Source: Alteromonadales bacterium alter-6D02 (GTDB lineage Bacteria; Pseudomonadota; Gammaproteobacteria; Enterobacterales; Psychrobiaceae). Taken from it: a stretch of DNA of 64,000 bases. Shown piece after piece: positions 5,006 through 32,963 of this stretch. Below the pieces are notes generated by a model. The model made no database searches. It was not told where the DNA came from and worked only from the letters and a program-made list of their open reading frames with translations. A program made the position numbers and the translations under genes. Location of the stretch: contig PIZK01000006.1 in the NCBI GenBank assembly GCA_002835545.1, positions 1 through 64,000 of the forward strand, given 5' to 3'. Position 1 is the stretch's first letter. Every line of letters begins with the position of its first letter.

Positions 5006-5082
5006 GCGCCCATAGCTCAGCTGGATAGAGCGTACCCCTCCGGAGGGTGAGGCCGGGGGTTCGAATCCTCCTGGGCGCGCCA
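5006..5082 (+). tRNA. tRNA-Arg (anticodon CCG)
   Basis: This is a 77-base cloverleaf. The acceptor GCGCCCA pairs with TGGGCGC. The anticodon loop C-T-C-C-G-G-A reads CCG, the T-loop is GGTTCGAATCC, and an encoded CCA ends at 5082. It closely resembles E. coli argX and is first in the Arg-His-Pro cluster. Confidence 0.97.
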
Positions 5083-5112
5083 GTCGTGTTTAGGGATTCA
5101 AGAAAAATTAGT

Positions 5113-5189
5113 GGTGACTATAGCTCAGTTGGTAGAGCCCCGGATTGTGATTCCGGTTGTCGTGGGTTCGAGCCCCATTAGTCACCCCA
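5113..5189 (+). tRNA. tRNA-His (anticodon GTG)
   Basis: This cloverleaf has the extra G(-1) at 5113 opposite discriminator C73, the identity feature of tRNA-His. The anticodon loop T-T-G-T-G-A-T reads GTG, and the T-arm GTGGGTTCGAGCCCC and encoded CCA are present. It lies 30 bases after tRNA-Arg and should be co-transcribed with it. Confidence 0.97.
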
Positions 5190-5235
5190 TTTTTTTCTCA
5201 CTTAACCAACACTCAATTGGTTAAACAAAATATGT

Positions 5236-5312
<77 letters not shown>

Positions 5313-18516: not shown

Positions 18517-20451
18517 TTAGGTAATTATAAATTCCATGGCTATCTCATCACAAGCCATCTTTTTCGGACAACCTTCACAGTCTTTAATGACTTTCTCTGG
18601 CAGAGTTTCTTTTTCCAGCTCTGTGAAGCCATGCTTCTCGAAGAACTGTGGTACTCGTGTTAATACAATTACACGCTGAATTTCAAGGTCTCTAGCACGT
18701 TGTAGCATATGATCAACTAGTGCTTTGCCCTGTCCAACACCTTGATGGTCAGTATTAATACCTACCGAGCGAATCTCTGCTAAGCCTGTTCCGTAAATAT
18801 AGAGAGAAGCACAACCGACAACAGACTCTTCATCTACTGCAACCGAGAAATCTAAAATACTATTAAGCACATCAAAGCGGCTACGTGGTAATGTTTCACC
18901 AACTTCAGACCAGTGTGCAATAATCTCAGTGATGGCATCAACATCGGTTAACTTGGCATGACGAACATTCATCAGCTCAGCTTTATGCGCATTGAGACGT
19001 TGTTGCATATTACCCATCGCATTTTGAACTTGCTCTTCGCTACTGCCACCAACCACTTCTGCAGAGCTAATCTCTTGCTTGACCTCAATGCGTTGCTCAT
19101 CTAATGCCGACATCACACTTGTTAATGATGTACCACCAAGGACTTCACGTTTTGCTAGGCAAGCATCAATAGTTAAATGCTGATAAACATCTGACTCAAT
19201 CACTTCCGAGAACTCTTTGAGCTGCTCTAAAGTAAAGTCCTCTAATGGAAGTTGACGTGAGATAGCTGACACTACAACTTCACCAACAATATGGTGCGCT
19301 TCTCTAAATGGAATATCTTTAGATACTAAGTAATCTGCTAATTCCGTCGCGTTTGCGTATCCTTGCTGTGCAGCTGCTAACATTCTTGGTTTATTCGTTT
19401 TCAACCCTTCAAGAACCATCGCCGCCATTTCAAGACAATCGCCCCAGTTATCAAGAGCGTCAAATAACCCTTCTTTGTCTTCTTGCATGTCTTTGTTATA
19501 AGCAAGAGGCAAGGCTTTGAGTGTCATCATAATTGCGCTGAGTGAACCATAGACACGGCCAGTTTTACCACGGATAAGCTCTAAAGCATCTGGGTTTTTC
19601 TTCTGTGGCATTAATGACGAACCAGAGGTCACATTATCAGCAAGTTCAATGAACCCAGCCTCCCCAGAGTTATAGAAAATTAAATCTTCTGCCATACGTG
19701 ACAGATGCATCATCGAGATACTAGCATCTGCTAGCAGCTCTAAAACATGATCACGGTCGGACACTGAATCTAAACTGTTTTGGGTCGCTTGCTTAAAACC
19801 AAGATCTCGCGCTAAAGCGTGACGATCGATAGGGTAAGCAGTTCCAGCTAAAGCACCGGAGCCCAGAGGGCATCGGTCAAGACGATCGGCAGTATCTCTC
19901 ATTCTACTTAGATCACGCTCAAACATTTCAACATAAGCTAAGCACCAGTGGCCAAAACTAATTGGTTGAGCACGTTGTAAATGCGTGTAACCTGGCATCA
20001 CTGTATCTTGTTCACGCACCGCTAGATCTAATAGCGCTTGTTGTAACTTAACCAACAGTTCACATAGTTCTACCGATTGCTCTTTACACCAAAGTTTTAA
20101 ATCAGTAGCTACTTGATCATTACGGCTACGACCAGTATGAAGTTTTTTACCTAAATCACCGACTTTTTCAATTAATTTAGACTCAACCCAGCTATGAATA
20201 TCTTCAGCATCACTTTGCAGGATTTTACTAGGGTCTTGCGATACCTCTTCCGCTAATTCATTAAGTGCACGCTCAAGATCTTGCTGCTCTTGCGAAGTCA
20301 ATACATTCACTTGCTCGAGCGCACGCGACCAACTAATTGAACCAGTGATATCTTGCTTTGCTAAACGGTAGTCAAACCGTAGTGAATCATTAAATAATTT
20401 AAATCTATCATCTGCGGCTTGTGTAAACCTTCCGCCCCATAGTGCTGCCAT
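18517..20451 (-). CDS. argH: Argininosuccinate lyase fused to an ArgA-like N-acetyltransferase, ArgH(A)
   Basis: Residues 1 to about 460 are a full argininosuccinate lyase, with the S-S-x-M-P-Q-K-K-N-P-D signature loop near residue 280 and H-T-G-R-S-R-N-D-Q near 108. From about 495 a GNAT domain follows, with the acetyl-CoA loop Q-G-V-G-Q-G-K-A-L, resembling N-acetylglutamate synthase. It ends in a C-x2-C-P-K-K-x3-C cluster. Such argH(A) fusions are known from Vibrio and Moritella relatives, where the added domain can supply the first step of arginine synthesis; activity here is inferred. The protein has 644 residues. It is last in the cluster, 73 bases after argF. Confidence 0.95.
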
Positions 20452-20524: not shown

Positions 20525-21439
20525 TTAAGCTAATAATGTAATTAACACTGCGTTTTGAGCATGCATTCTATTTTCTGCTTGCTGCAGTACTAGGGACTTG
20601 TCCCCATCAAACACTTCTTGAGTAACCTCTTGGCCAATATGTGCCGGTTGACAATGCATAAAGTAACCAATTTCTAATGAATCCATCATCTGTTGATTCA
20701 CTTGATAAGGAGCAAATTTATCTTTGATATCTTCATAACTAACATCATCACCCATTGAAATCCACGTATCAGCATAAACAGCATCAGCGTTCTGAGCCGC
20801 TTTAGGGTCTGTTGACAACTCAAGCGATCCACCATAGTGCGCAGCTAATGCCTGAGCTTCCAACACAACTTTACCATCTGGGAAACAACCTTCCGGACAT
20901 ATCACCACCATCTCAGCACCCGTAATGGCTGCAGCAAACATTAATGAGTGAGTCACATTGTTACCGTCACCGATATAGGCAAGTTTAACGTTAGATAAAT
21001 CGTCAAACTGCTCACTTAATGCTAAAAAGTCAGCTAAGCCCTGACAGGGGTGATACATATCACTTAATGAGTTAACCACAGGAACGCGACCATGCTCAGC
21101 AAGCTCTTCAACAGTTTTATGACTGAAGGTGCGAGCGACAATACCGTCAGCCCAACATGAAATATTTTTAGCAAAATCCGCCACTGATTCACGCTTGCCT
21201 AATGCGCCATTATTTTGATCAAGATAAACCGTATGACCACCCAACTTAGCAATACCAATATCAAAAGTAACACGAGTTCGTAATGATGGTTTTTCATATA
21301 GCGTTACGATACTCTTACCAGCAAGTGCTTGGCTAAACTCACTTGGATTCGCTTTAACTTGCTTAGCTAGCTCTAGGAGGCCGAGCAGTTGCTCTTGGCT
21401 TAAATCTTTTAGGGTCAATAAATGTTGTAACTTTTCCAT
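20525..21439 (-). CDS. argF: Ornithine carbamoyltransferase
   Basis: ArgF makes citrulline from ornithine and carbamoyl phosphate. Its 304 residues show the carbamoyl-phosphate site P-S-L-R-T-R-V-T-F, the second half H-P-C-Q-x-L-A-D, the D-G-N-N-V-T-H-S segment, and the ornithine loop W-I-S-M-G-D-D. The catalytic cysteine loop reads H-C-Q-P-A-H rather than the common H-C-L-P. This may be a lineage variant; I would still call ornithine as substrate, with acetylornithine as the alternative. It lies 11 bases after argB and is followed directly by argH, with no argG between. Confidence 0.92.
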   Translation of the reverse strand: MEKLQHLLTLKDLSQEQLLGLLELAKQVKANPSEFSQALAGKSIVTLYEKPSLRTRVTFDIGIAKLGGHTVYLDQNNGALGKRESVADFAKNISCWADGIVARTFSHKTVEELAEHGRVPVVNSLSDMYHPCQGLADFLALSEQFDDLSNVKLAYIGDGNNVTHSLMFAAAITGAEMVVICPEGCFPDGKVVLEAQALAAHYGGSLELSTDPKAAQNADAVYADTWISMGDDVSYEDIKDKFAPYQVNQQMMDSLEIGYFMHCQPAHIGQEVTQEVFDGDKSLVLQQAENRMHAQNAVLITLLA

Positions 21440-21450
21440 AATCTTTCTCT

Positions 21451-22233
21451 TTAAACCGCGTTACTTTCAATTAAGGTGCCGCACACACCACCGTCTACTA
21501 AGGCTAATAATTGTTGTGGCTCTTGCCAGCTGGCAATCACAATAGAATCACCAAGAGCGTTTGCTGTTGCGAAAGCTGTATCAACCTTTACTTTCATACC
21601 GCCAACAATCACATCATCAGCAACTAATTGCTGAGCTAGTTCTGGCGATAATTTACTAATTAGCTGCTTATCACCATCTAATACACCGGGAACATCGGAT
21701 AATAAAATCAGCTTTGCATTTAATAACTGAGCAATCACTTGCGCGGCTTGATCTGCATTAACATTTAGTAAGTTACCTGCTCCATCATCAGCAATTGAGC
21801 TAATTACCGGTACAAAGCCACTGGCTAACAACGAGATAAGCAAACTACGCTCATGGGCTTGGCACTGACCAACCTGACCTAAACGGCTATCAAGGTAGTC
21901 ACTGGTGACTATGTCACCATCAGCTAAACTTAAACCGACTGTCTTTAGACCCGTTGATTTAGCACACGCAACTAACTTTTTATTTGCAGCACCGGCAAGT
22001 GCACCAGCAACTAGATCAATTTGGCTTTGGGGCGTAACTCGAAGGCCATCAAGCTTTTCACTTTTCATACCAGCTTGGCTCAGCCACTCTTCAACTAAGC
22101 AACCCCCCCCATGCACTAAAACGACATGAATATCTTGCTCTGTTAATTGTGCAATCGTCGTAAAAAGTGCCTGCTGACCACTGGTTGATTCAAGTAATGC
22201 ACCACCAACTTTAATAACTAACGGTTGTTTCAT
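21451..22233 (-). CDS. argB: Acetylglutamate kinase
   Basis: ArgB phosphorylates N-acetylglutamate, the second step of arginine synthesis. It belongs to the amino-acid kinase fold: N-terminal K-V-G-G-A-L-L, the substrate loop V-H-G-G-G, the L-N-V-N-A-D-Q-A-A segment and G-G-M-x-x-K-V near the C-terminus. The start at 22231-22233 overlaps the argC stop as ATGA and has GGAGG four bases upstream, giving 260 residues, close to E. coli ArgB (258). Being the short enteric type, it is probably not feedback-inhibited by arginine. Confidence 0.95.
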
Positions 22234-23234
22234 GCTACCTCCGTCAAGCCAAAGTGAATTAAGATACATTGTAAGCCCTGACCAGCAGCACCTTTAAGTA
22301 GGTTATCAATGGCTGAAGCCACCACTAAGTGACCACTCTGAGCATCATATTTCCAAGCGATATCGCAAAATGGTGTTCCTGCCACTTGGTCAATTTTAGG
22401 CCAACTATCATCTCTCACTCGAACTAATGGTTTATCTTCGTAAACCCCATAAGCAGCTGCTAGTTGCTCTGCTGTAACCTTATCGTTTAATTTGACGGTA
22501 ATGGTTGCCAAAATTCCACGTTTAAAATTACCTAAATGAGGTGTAAAAATAACAGGGCAACCCAGTTGCGTTGTTATTTCAGGTTGATGGCGGTGGCCAA
22601 GCACGCCATACGGAGTTAAGCTGACTTCACAAAAGCTATTTACCATGCTCGCTTTACGACCAGCACCTGTGACACCACTCACAGCATTAATCACCGGCCA
22701 CTGATTACTATCTAACAGGTTATTTTCAAATAAAGGTTTAAGTGCAAGCAAGGATGCTGTTGGGTAACAACCAGGTACCGCAATTAACTTAGACGTTCTG
22801 ATGGCTTGTGCATTCCACTCCGCTAACCCATAAACCGCTTCGCTTAATAACTCAGGGTGTTGATGATTGAAACCATAATACTCATCAATGTAGCTACCCT
22901 CTTTAAAACGGTATGCGCCCGATAAGTCAAAGACACTTAAGCCCGCTTGATAGAACTCAGCTGCAAGTGCATGACTTACTTCATGGCTTGTAGCAAGTAC
23001 AACTGCATCATTATTTTCTTTAATTGCAGCCATTGCTTCATTTGTTAAAGGCTGCAACTGATGTGAAAAACGCCCACTAAATTGCGGATAAAGTGCATTA
23101 ATATCTCGGCCTTTATCTTCGCTATTTTCTGAAACATATAAACCACTAACTTTCAATTGTGGATGCTGTTCTACTAATTGACACATTTCAGCACCGGTGT
23201 ATCCACTAGCGCCAACAATAGCTATACTAATCAT
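22230..23234 (-). CDS. argC: N-acetyl-gamma-glutamyl-phosphate reductase
   Basis: ArgC reduces N-acetylglutamyl phosphate to the semialdehyde with NADPH, the third step. Its 334 residues equal E. coli ArgC in length. They contain the nucleotide-binding G-A-S-G-Y-T-G-A-E, catalytic cysteine in V-P-G-C-Y-P-T-A, and the conserved histidine in G-H-R-H-Q-P-E. It is the first structural gene of argC-B-F-H. The 241-base region ahead of it carries a candidate leader peptide, attenuator hairpins and an operator-like palindrome. Confidence 0.96.
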
Positions 23235-23279
23235 AATATTAAAATCACTTAAATAGGGTTAACTTAAATAAATAGAAAT

Positions 23280-23332
23280 GTCGGTAACGCGAAAAGACCG
23301 ACGCAATAAACAATGTGTTTATCGTCGTCGGT
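23280..23332 (-). promoter_or_regulatory. Candidate arginine attenuator ahead of argC
   Basis: Read on the minus strand, three complementary segments occur in order: A ACCGACG (23332-23326), B CGTCGGT (23303-23297) and C ACCGAC (23285-23280). A and B close a long hairpin that also has a perfect inner stem ATAAACA/TGTTTAT around a three-base loop, and B is followed by CTTTTC. B can instead pair with C, so the two structures exclude each other. Arm A contains the three CGA codons of the leader frame. A ribosome stalled there would block the A-B terminator and allow transcription into argC. The run of four U is short, so termination strength is uncertain. Confidence 0.6.
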
Positions 23333-23369
23333 TAAAGGTGTGTTTACTTAAAGAGATAAAATGGCTCAT
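23319..23369 (-). CDS. Candidate arginine leader peptide, 16 residues ending Arg-Arg-Arg
   Basis: The frame is ATG, 12 codons, CGA CGA CGA, TAA, giving MSHFISLSKHTFNRRR. It ends 84 bases before the argC ATG. Three adjacent arginine codons just before the stop, inside the 5' arm of a terminator-like hairpin and upstream of arginine biosynthesis genes, is the signature of a control peptide like LeuL or HisL. The weak point is the ribosome site: only AGAAAAG precedes the ATG. I know of no standard named arginine leader peptide of this kind in gammaproteobacteria, so no symbol is given. Confidence 0.6.
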   Translation of the reverse strand: MSHFISLSKHTFNRRR

Positions 23370-23395
23370 TGCACTTTTCTAACTAAAACTATTAA

Positions 23396-23457
23396 GGCAA
23401 TATTGCCAACAACCTCAGTATAACGACAACATATAATTATGCAACTAAAATGCATAA
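23396..23457 (-). promoter_or_regulatory. Probable argC promoter with overlapping operator-like palindrome
   Basis: On the minus strand TTGCAT (23439-23444) and TATACT (23417-23422) are separated by 16 bases, placing the transcript start near 23410. A perfect palindrome, TTATGCA-N7-TGCATAA (23437-23457), overlaps the -35 box, where a repressor would act. ArgR boxes are A/T-rich with TGAAT and ATTCA half-sites; TGCAT is one base off, so ArgR is plausible but unproven. GGCAATATTGCC (23396-23407) forms a self-complementary site in the early leader. Confidence 0.45.
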
Positions 23458-23475
23458 CTATTTATTAACTACATT

Positions 23476-24303
23476 ATGAATAAAAATATTATCGTGATTG
23501 GTAGTGGATGGCTAGGTAGCCCTTTGTCTAAAGCCCTTGCACAATCAGGCCATAAAGTCACAGCAACGACCACCAGTACAGACAAACTCGCGCCGCTGAA
23601 TGAGCAAGGTTTTGATTTAATTTTACTTAATAGCCAAAAGCTCATACAGCAAGATCAAGCCATGTGGCCACAAATAAATGCTGACTTAATGATCATCACC
23701 ATACCACCACAGCGAGGGCAGACTGATTATTTCGAACAACTCAAAGTGTTGGCACAACTTGCTTTAAATAATAAGGTCAGGCAATTATTATTTATTAGCT
23801 CCTCATCTGTCTGGGCAAATTGTCACGGCATGATTACCGAGCAAACAACTGCCAACCCTATGACTGCCACGGGGCAAGCTATGGTTAATTTCTCTCAATG
23901 GCTGCACCAGTCAGCACTCGACGCGACAACTCTTCATTTAACAGGATTAATTAACGAACAACGCCATCCCGGGCATTTCCTTGCAGGTAAATCCGCTTTA
24001 TCACAAGCCAACGCAGCAGTTAACTTAATTCATCAGCAAGACTGTATCGGTTTAATAGAAAGGATTATTGATAAACAATACTGGGGACACCAAGCCATTG
24101 GCTGTGCTCCTAGTCATCCATCACGAAGAGAGTTTTATATTAAAGCCGCTCAAAGGTTAGGGTTAGAGCCTCCTACATTTAATGACGCAGGAATCGTTCA
24201 ACAAGAAAACGATACAAAAATCATTAACGCTCAAGCTACTGCGACGGCACTTGATTATCACTATCAGATCAGCGATTTAATAAAGTGGCTTCACTCCACC
24301 TAG
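23476..24303 (+). CDS. NAD(P)-dependent epimerase/dehydratase-like protein, YeeZ-type
   Basis: This is an extended SDR-type protein of 275 residues. A Rossmann G-S-G-W-L-G-S-P motif lies at residues 8-15, an acidic-poor second strand T-A-T-T-T-S suggests NADP preference, and S-S-S-S-V-W-A marks the catalytic strand, but the usual Y-x-x-x-K is not evident. It resembles E. coli YeeZ, whose substrate is unknown, so I assign no reaction. It is divergent from argC, occupying the place where argE is often found in related arg clusters. It ends at a terminator shared with gppA. Confidence 0.72.
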   Translation: MNKNIIVIGSGWLGSPLSKALAQSGHKVTATTTSTDKLAPLNEQGFDLILLNSQKLIQQDQAMWPQINADLMIITIPPQRGQTDYFEQLKVLAQLALNNKVRQLLFISSSSVWANCHGMITEQTTANPMTATGQAMVNFSQWLHQSALDATTLHLTGLINEQRHPGHFLAGKSALSQANAAVNLIHQQDCIGLIERIIDKQYWGHQAIGCAPSHPSRREFYIKAAQRLGLEPPTFNDAGIVQQENDTKIINAQATATALDYHYQISDLIKWLHST

Positions 24304-31211: not shown

Positions 31212-31277
31212 ATGAATTATAGCAAACGTATCCTAAGCCTTTTACTTCTCCTGCCAGATTCTGCTGCGGGCGCTTAG
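31212..31277 (+). CDS. leuL: leu operon leader peptide
   Basis: This is a 21-codon frame that starts M-N-Y-S-K-R-I-L-S and runs through five consecutive leucine codons (CTT TTA CTT CTC CTG), with a further CTA just before, then ends in TAG. Position upstream of leuA, the leucine run and the following antiterminator/terminator structures make it a LeuL control peptide. When charged tRNA-Leu is scarce, the ribosome stalls on these codons and the downstream terminator does not form. A weak AAGAG ribosome site lies upstream. Confidence 0.85.
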   Translation: MNYSKRILSLLLLLPDSAAGA

Positions 31278-31400: not shown

Positions 31401-32963
31401 ATGTCTGATCAAGTCATCATATTTGACACCACCTTACGCGACGGCGAGCAAGCGTTAGCGGCGAGTTTAACCGTTAAAGAAAAGTTACAAATCGCCCTAG
31501 CCCTCGAACGTCTGGGTGTTGATGTGATGGAAGTCGGTTTTCCGGTCTCATCACCAGGCGATTTTGAATCGGTTCAAACTATCGCAAGTACAGTAAAGAA
31601 CAGTGTTTGTGCCGGTTTATCTCGAGCCGTTAAAGCGGATATCGATGCTTGTGCTAATGCATTAAAAGTCGCTGAACGATTTCGTATTCACACCTTTATT
31701 TCAACCTCGACTATCCATGTTGAAAGTAAGTTGAAACGAAGTTTCGATGATGTATTAGATATGGCTGTGGGCGCGGTAAAATACGCACGTAACTTTACTG
31801 ACGACGTTGAATTTTCATGTGAAGATGCAGGCCGTACCCCAATTGATAATTTATGCCGCATGGTTGAATCAGCGATTAATGCTGGGGCAACCACTATTAA
31901 TATTCCTGATACGGTCGGTTATACCATTCCCAGTGAGTTTGGCGGTATCATCAAAACCTTATATAACCGCGTTCCAAATATCGACAAAGCGATTATCTCG
32001 GTGCATTGCCATAACGATTTAGGCATGTCCGTAGCAAATTCAATTAGCGCAATTGAGATGGGGGCACGTCAAGTTGAGTGTACCATCAACGGTATTGGTG
32101 AGCGCGCAGGTAACGCTTCACTAGAAGAAATCGCAATGATCTTACAATTACGTAAAGATATCTTAGGTGTTGAAACAAATATTAACAGTCAAGAAATTTA
32201 TCGTACGTCTCAGTTAGTCAGCAACCTTTGTAACATGGTCGTTCAGCCTAATAAGGCAATCGTGGGTAGTAATGCCTTCTCACACTCATCAGGCATTCAC
32301 CAAGATGGCATGTTAAAGGCCGAAAATACCTATGAAATCATGACCGCAGACTCTATTGGCCAACCTAAGAAATCATTAAACATGACTTCACGTTCAGGCC
32401 GCCATGTAATTAAGCACCGTATGGAAGAGCTAGGCTATCAAGAGCAAGATTTTAACCTAGATGAGCTATATGATTCATTCTTACGTCTAGCAGACAAAAA
32501 AGGTCAAGTGTTCGATTATGACCTAGAAGCCTTATTGTTCTTCAATCAGCAAAAAGATGACAATGACCATTACAAGCTAGCATACCTAAGTGCACACGCG
32601 GGCTCAGGTATGATGTCAACTGCCAGTGTTAAGTTAAATGTCGGCGATAAAGAGTTTATTGAAGCAGCGACAGGTAATGGTCCTGTTGAGGCAGCTTTTA
32701 ACGCTGTTAGCCAAATATCGAAAGTAGACTTAGAGATTGTTGATTATTCATTGAAAGCCAAAGGCGAAGGTGAAAATGCATTAGGGCAAGTCGACATTGT
32801 GGCGAAGTATAACGGCCAAAATTTCCATGGCATGGGTCTGGCAACCGATGTAGTACACGCATCAGTACGCGCCTTATTGCATGTATTAAACCTTGTTCAT
32901 CGTGCAGACTTAGTCGCAGACAAGAAACAGCAAATAAAACAACAACAGGTAGCAGGCGTTTAA
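31401..32963 (+). CDS. leuA: 2-isopropylmalate synthase
   Basis: LeuA condenses 2-ketoisovalerate with acetyl-CoA, the first committed leucine step. The 520 residues start with the HMGL-like barrel ([11 protein letters not shown]), have metal-binding H-C-H-N-D-L-G and the G-N-A-S-L-E-E segment, and end in the LeuA dimer domain that binds leucine for feedback inhibition. AAAGGAACGG precedes the ATG. It is the first structural gene after the leuL attenuator and 53 bases ahead of leuB. Confidence 0.96.

Follow-up and report, generated by a model that had tools for sequence, protein, structure and literature searches.

In Gammaproteobacteria, transcription attenuators of the trp, his, leu, thr, phe and ilv type combine a short open reading frame (ORF) containing codons for the operon's own amino acid with a terminator-like hairpin ahead of the operon, and they can be stacked upon repression, as in the case of trpL, whose attenuation operates beside the TrpR repressor. 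The pyrBI and pyrE attenuators are likewise ribosome-coupled and sense UTP through polymerase pausing. T-box leaders bind tRNA directly and have no leader ORF. Bacterial arginine operons are, to our knowledge, usually described as ArgR-controlled, and ArgR acts on transcription start. Surveys of attenuation have reportedly been made by Merino and Yanofsky, by Lopatovskaya in 2010 and by Vitreschak in 2004. For control of arginine at the RNA level, T-boxes are named in a survey of Actinobacteria (PMC1262725). argC is absent from the main text of a survey of regulatory RNAs in Shewanella, which cites 449 attenuators predicted in S. oneidensis by others (PMC2659441). Our search of the literature returned no bacterial operon for arginine biosynthesis under attenuation by a leader peptide; argC may nevertheless figure in an earlier computed prediction. 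Nor was a description found of the compact layout reported here, which is most likely that of an arginine attenuator and part of a wider pattern of CGA-containing leaders before argC.

The locus lies on the minus strand of the window, i.e., the whole 64,000-nt stretch analysed (positions 1 to 64,000 of contig PIZK01000006.1 from Alteromonadales bacterium alter-6D02). Profile matches place argC, argB, argF and argH consecutively on this strand: argC, the first gene of the operon (22230..23234; TIGR01850, 375.9 bits against a cut-off of 233.6), argB (21451..22269; TIGR00761, above cut-off), argF (20525..21439; NF011380 and TIGR00658, both above cut-off) and argH with an acetyltransferase-like tail (18517..20451; NF008964, 1089.2 bits). 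The C-terminal residues 494-639 of the latter match the NF005840 N-acetyltransferase model, and this domain suggests a putative argH(A)-type fusion at 18517-20451.

A putative promoter, recognized by reading the sequence, comprises TTGCAT and TATACT separated by 16 nt (23417..23444, minus strand); the -10 element is TATACT or TATATT in the relatives, and transcription would start near 23410. Its -35 region is overlapped by an ARG-box-like palindrome, TTATGCA...TGCATAA (23437..23457, minus strand), and like palindromes occur at the same place in the genus relatives and in family group f6, all as judged by eye. From its likeness to an ARG box, we take this palindrome to be a candidate ArgR operator; argR itself is represented by one match in the genome (142.2 bits, above cut-off). 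A small conserved hairpin, TTGGCAATATTGCC (23396..23409, minus strand), lies close to where the leader RNA is predicted to begin, and variants of it are present in all ten genus species, 23-27 nt upstream of the leader ATG. It may alternatively pair with the start-codon region of the leader; for this pairing the mean z was -1.35, with P <= 0.05 in four of the ten species.

The leader ORF (MSHFISLSKHTFNRRR*; 23369..23319, minus strand) contains 16 codons and ends in three control codons, CGA CGA CGA (23330..23322), followed by the stop TAA (23321..23319), as the initial annotation had described. Folding yields a terminator-like hairpin (23332..23297, minus strand) with the Arg and stop codons inside its 5' arm; it has 16 base pairs, a lone A being bulged out, and an energy of -20 kcal/mol (z = -6.5; none of 200 dinucleotide shuffles was as stable). 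The hairpin had been located correctly in that annotation, but the inner stem, given there as 7 bp, really consists of nine pairs, one of them G-U. It is followed by a short U-tract, CTTTTC (23296..23291, minus strand), and by ACCGAC (23285..23280, minus strand), which can pair with the hairpin 3' arm; both were found at the positions originally assigned to them. A simple scan reported neither a terminator at the 23332..23297 hairpin nor a promoter at 23417..23444, and its sole minus-strand promoter-like site (23262-23233) overlaps the start of argC; we attribute the two misses to the bulged hairpin stem, the brevity of the T-run and a weak -35 element. An Rfam cmscan of 23150-23520 at E <= 10 produced two matches, both far below gathering scores, and at the gathering threshold the whole window yielded only three tRNAs, with no T-box or known riboswitch. 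In the 4.0 Mb genome, CGNCGNCGNTAR occurs 46 times and the backwards-read pattern 140 times. The string CGACGACGATAR has four genomic sites, and the leader is the sole one situated in a short ORF that begins with ATG and precedes an arg gene. Of the remaining three, two lack such an ORF altogether and the third is a short ORF lying opposite a long frame on the other strand.

Conservation was assessed within the genus, which is Psychrobium-like and does not belong to the Colwelliaceae, the group initially suggested; NCBI assigns Psychrobium to the Shewanellaceae. The set consisted of nine genomes including that of the window, all nine with argC, and one additional species from contigs (L011). 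Loci L012-L015, whose contigs equal those of L004-L007 in length and were regarded as duplicates of them, were left out, as was L143, which could not be oriented. The leader is real and conserved: in all ten species it is exactly 16 codons long with the Arg run at the stop, which is either TAA or TAG and lies 76-112 nt from argC. Nine leaders end in CGA CGA CGA, and the tenth (L007, whose genome completeness is put at 82%) in CGA CAA CGA. Short Arg-Arg ORFs precede argC in nine of the ten species, whereas 40 shuffles average 0.65 such species and never exceed 3. The rest of the peptide appears only weakly constrained, pN/pS for codons 2-13 being 0.78 in frame, with values of 1.02 and 1.23 when the two alternative frames are read.

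Hairpin energies in the genus range from -7.1 to -21.0 kcal/mol, with z <= -3.9 in eight of the ten species; the weak hairpins are those of L003 (-11.7 kcal/mol, z -2.0, no T-tract) and L007 (-7.1 kcal/mol, z -1.0). A T-tract follows the hairpin in every species except L003 and is the short CTTTTC in seven and CTTTTTT in two. The core of the 3' arm, GTCGG, on which the alignment was anchored, is identical in all ten species, with many bases on either side varying, and since this arm is non-coding, such invariance is evidence that it pairs with the arm carrying the codons. In the outer stem, the two outermost pairs are lost in L003, L004 and L005, and no covariation was seen; covariation is uninformative here because one arm is fixed by the CGA codons. 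No recognizable Shine-Dalgarno sequence precedes the ten leaders, as judged from pairing energies: the best value is -1.7 and the mean -0.3 kcal/mol, compared to -2.4 for argC, and none reaches -4.

The initial proposal of an arginine leader and attenuating hairpin ahead of argCBFH thus fared well in several comparative tests. The Arg codons, the frame, the length, the stop and the non-coding 3' arm are all kept in the genus, similar leaders occur in other families (see below), and the two weak points that had been conceded, a short U run and a poor ribosome site, are both evident. The expected covariation did not appear in the outer stem, and mutually exclusive pairing of the 3' arm with ACCGAC was not borne out, as CCGAC lies within 45 nt after the hairpin in only two of the ten species. 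We consequently dropped ACCGAC as a general antiterminator and do not class the locus as a classical multi-hairpin attenuator.

We consider it probable, from the comparative sequence evidence, that the leader is an arginine-responsive, ribosome-mediated transcription attenuator of argCBFH, forming a second layer of control beside ArgR. RNA polymerase would transcribe the 16-codon leader ending CGA CGA CGA UAA, the Arg and stop codons of which make up part of the 5' arm. When arginine is scarce, a ribosome halted on CGA would mask this arm, the hairpin could not form and transcription would read through into argC. When arginine is ample, the ribosome would reach the stop and depart, the hairpin would close and transcription would terminate, leaving a leader RNA of about 120 bases. 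In such a two-state design a separate antiterminator would be unnecessary. A ribosome-free transcript would also terminate, as would suit a leader that is seldom translated and takes effect only through a stalled ribosome. The missing Shine-Dalgarno sequence would then cap the largest possible induction, and it is the chief weakness of the attenuator reading.

Read as an attenuator, the locus resembles the trp, his, leu, thr, phe and ilv systems in having a short ORF with codons for its own amino acid, a terminator-like hairpin and a biosynthetic operon. It differs from them in the amino acid concerned, in the position of the control and stop codons within the hairpin 5' arm, in having no conserved antiterminator and, in the genus, in a leader that is devoid of a Shine-Dalgarno sequence. 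The same window contains an element of more classical appearance, namely a leuL-type leader (MNYSKRILSLLLLLPDSAAGA*; 31212-31277, plus strand) followed, as seen by eye, by a G+C-rich hairpin with a T-run and then, at 31401, by a gene resembling leuA; this classical-looking attenuator had already been noted as leuL. There is a parallel in design with pyrBI and pyrE, in which the ribosome itself prevents the terminator hairpin and an antiterminator is unneeded; unlike these UTP-sensing systems, the arg leader would sense the decoding of CGA. With operons under ArgR and ARG-box control it shares the palindrome at the promoter and the single argR gene, although such control leaves the leader and hairpin unexplained. 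As in T-boxes, charging of tRNA-Arg would be sensed by an mRNA leader (PMC1262725), whereas a T-box dispenses with a leader ORF, and the window holds no Rfam match to one. The speF leader of Salmonella also provides arginine-linked premature termination through an mRNA leader, but it is reported to control ornithine decarboxylase rather than arginine synthesis (PMC6386406).

The distribution of such leaders was examined across the order, where argC is present in 363 of 394 genomes, six of the 363 belonging to the genus. Upstream regions were obtained from 153 of the 357 argC-containing genomes outside the genus and, together with the ten genus regions, the total is 163 in 22 numbered family groups. 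The sample is non-random (the 30 best matches minus the genus, plus choice by family), and the argC start was defined as the nearest in-frame ATG, which is possibly wrong in some loci. A set of 75 named loci (L016-L090), mostly from Vibrio, Aliivibrio and enterobacteria, was treated separately.

CGACGA is found 55-200 nt upstream of argC in 75 of the 163 regions, spanning nine family groups: f1 (9/10), f6 (30/34), f7 (19/35), f13 (4/4), f16 (3/3), f2 (2/3), f25 (6/10), f11 (1/1) and f21 (1/7). It is absent from f12 (0/15), f3 (0/9), f10 (0/7), f18 (0/5), f20 (0/5), f27 (0/4), f9 (0/4) and from six groups of one or two regions each. Within short ATG ORFs with a nearby stop, the motif is in frame in 70 of the 75 regions, the other two frames accounting for 4 and 1. 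Control hexamers in the 163 regions gave 8 for TCGTCG (6 of them in f1, where the other arm of the hairpin sits), 4 each for AGCAGC and CAGCAG, 2 each for CGCCGC, AGACGA and CGAAGA, and 1 each for CGTCGT and GCGGCG; GACGAC and ACGACG, which occur in 30 and 33 regions, both overlap CGACGA. Short Arg-Arg ORFs exceed all 40 shuffles in f1, f6 (30/34 versus a shuffle mean of 2.95), f7 (17/35 versus 2.7), f25 (6/10 versus 1.4) and the combined f13, f16 and f2 (9/10 versus 1.35). They do not exceed the shuffles in f12 (0/15), in the remaining families together (8/49; shuffles averaging 4.45 and reaching 8) or in the named set (5/75; mean 7.5), although two Enterovibrio loci (MDKFSTPLLQRRRRR) and Vibrio sp. 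Of7-15 (MNQAKHIALYSLRRRRI) among the latter do have such leaders. The shuffles ignore kinship, and short Lys-Lys ORFs appear in 38 of the 75 named loci; kinship alone can thus repeat a pair, and close relatives that share one do not count as independent observations.

Group f6 looks like the Shewanellaceae; OmcA/MtrC-type decahaem cytochromes scored above cut-off in all nine f6 genomes tested and in neither of two f1 genomes. argC is retained without CGACGA in 4 f6 regions, 16 f7 regions and all 15 f12 regions. The f6 loci L093, L094, L110 and L112 keep argC and an ARG-box-like palindrome and are missing CGACGA, an apparent loss of the motif. Six other f6 loci (L091, L092, L100, L103, L108 and L111) show a second hairpin just past the leader stop, with a C-rich loop and no T-tract; its stem is TTAGACG...CGTCTAA or elsewhere TTAGGC...GCCTAA, and by eye it seems to covary.

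Terminators are distributed differently from the leaders. Terminator-like hairpins with dG <= -12 were identified in only 4 of the 30 motif-bearing f6 regions and 1 of 6 in f25. In f7, strong ones are present in 12 of 19 regions with the motif versus 7 of 16 without it, some having T-tracts (e.g., L120, L175, L181, L186 and L188). Motif-less regions of f3 (4/9) and f25 (3/4) also contain strong terminator-like hairpins with T-tracts before argC, perhaps attenuators using other codons. A terminator is therefore at best a partial mark of leader-bearing regions, given the strong ones in motif-less f7, f25 and f3, and was rejected as such. The rarity of terminators in f6 and their frequency in f7 without the motif indicate that the leader is more widespread than any single read-out observed here. 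The few intrinsic terminators in the leader-keeping f6 and f25 favour a different arrangement, in which translation of the leader governs either termination by Rho or translation initiation at argC, the genus hairpin being secondary; the want of a conserved antiterminator points the same way. We regard this as unlikely, since in the genus the non-coding hairpin arm is kept in ten of ten species and the T-tract in nine, and the 76-112 nt between leader stop and argC is far for reinitiation.

The choice of Arg codon is strongly biased. CGA accounts for 166 of the 185 codons in the Arg runs of all groups: f1 (27/27), f6 (65/66), f7 (30/33), f13 (11/11), f25 (12/15), f16 (6/7), f2 (4/4), three named loci (8/14), f21 (2/3), f14 (1/2) and f15 (0/3). 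Its share of the Arg codons in argC is 12% in f1 (n=74), 3% in f6 (n=154) and 6% in f7 (n=296), and it is absent from the small argC samples of f13 (6), f16 (21), f25 (18) and f2 (18). Seven of the f7 regions examined have a hairpin at least as stable as -13.8 kcal/mol; in five of them it begins past the leader stop, and pairing cannot explain the choice of CGA in those five. By the usual decoding rule, CGA is read by inosine tRNA. The tRNA-Arg genes among the 82 tRNAs found in the genome are ACG (four copies), CCG, TCT and CCT, with none bearing UCG, and CGA would thus be read by the inosine tRNA here too; this set of 82 is incomplete, tRNA-Ile being missing from it. Three tRNA genes lie in the window at 5006-5309 (plus strand), the first of which is the sole tRNA-Arg(CCG) among the 82. 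CGA would be the sensor codon, and we infer that it was chosen since it is poorly read by inosine tRNA. Leaders have been proposed to prefer whichever codon is decoded with the greatest sensitivity to starvation (PMC1183508), and in his-leader constructs of Salmonella, Arg-Arg pairs of CGA, AGA or AGG led to high de-attenuation (PMC4046918).

The preference for CGA over its synonyms also bears on the possibility of an arrest peptide, in which the nascent chain and free arginine in the ribosome tunnel would stall the ribosome; it points to decoding and not to the peptide. Leaders of the arrest type include SpeFL, TnaC and the fungal arginine attenuator peptide. The Arg run of f1 and f6 does end at the stop, where such peptides can stall. 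Apart from this run, the families share little by eye (outside f1 and f6, the run and the residues after it read RRS, RRH, RRK, RRRTNA, RRRQLA or RRRSHL), and conserved residues beyond the control codons were not found, the genus pN/pS over codons 2-13 agreeing with this. Furthermore, a stall at high arginine would hold the hairpin open and turn the operon on, which would be the wrong sign for biosynthesis. An arrest peptide is in our opinion decidedly improbable.

Two further explanations are weaker still. The argR gene, the ARG-box-like palindrome and a leader without a Shine-Dalgarno sequence are compatible with a plain terminator or RNA-stabilising hairpin beside an incidental ORF, with ArgR as the sole control by arginine, but the in-frame CGA runs (70 of 75, over nine family groups) and a codon choice unlike that of argC make this very hard to credit. 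That CGACGA is a protein-binding DNA or RNA motif, as the nucleotide constancy of the runs might suggest, is equally implausible in view of the 70:4:1 frame test, the exact 16-codon length in ten of ten genus species and the runs that include CGC and CGT, e.g., in the two Enterovibrio.

The attenuator reading can be extended beyond the genus, and on balance we favour an old second layer of control over much of the order, in which leaders with CGA runs before argC would sense charging of the inosine tRNA-Arg and the read-out would be lineage-specific. In Psychrobium the read-out would be a terminator of which the control codons are themselves a part, in parts of f7 a separate strong terminator, and in f6 and f25 a mechanism mostly without an intrinsic terminator. 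The genus version, with its control codons within the terminator arm, would be a very compact two-state design. With CGA employed almost to the exclusion of its synonyms, the proposal of starvation-sensitive codons (PMC1183508) becomes directly testable for arginine. The sequence comparisons suggest that these bacteria may sense arginine shortage via a slowed ribosome as well as via the repressor. If this is true, arginine is one more amino acid monitored through a leader peptide, and attenuation is layered upon ArgR control just as it is upon the repressor in trp.
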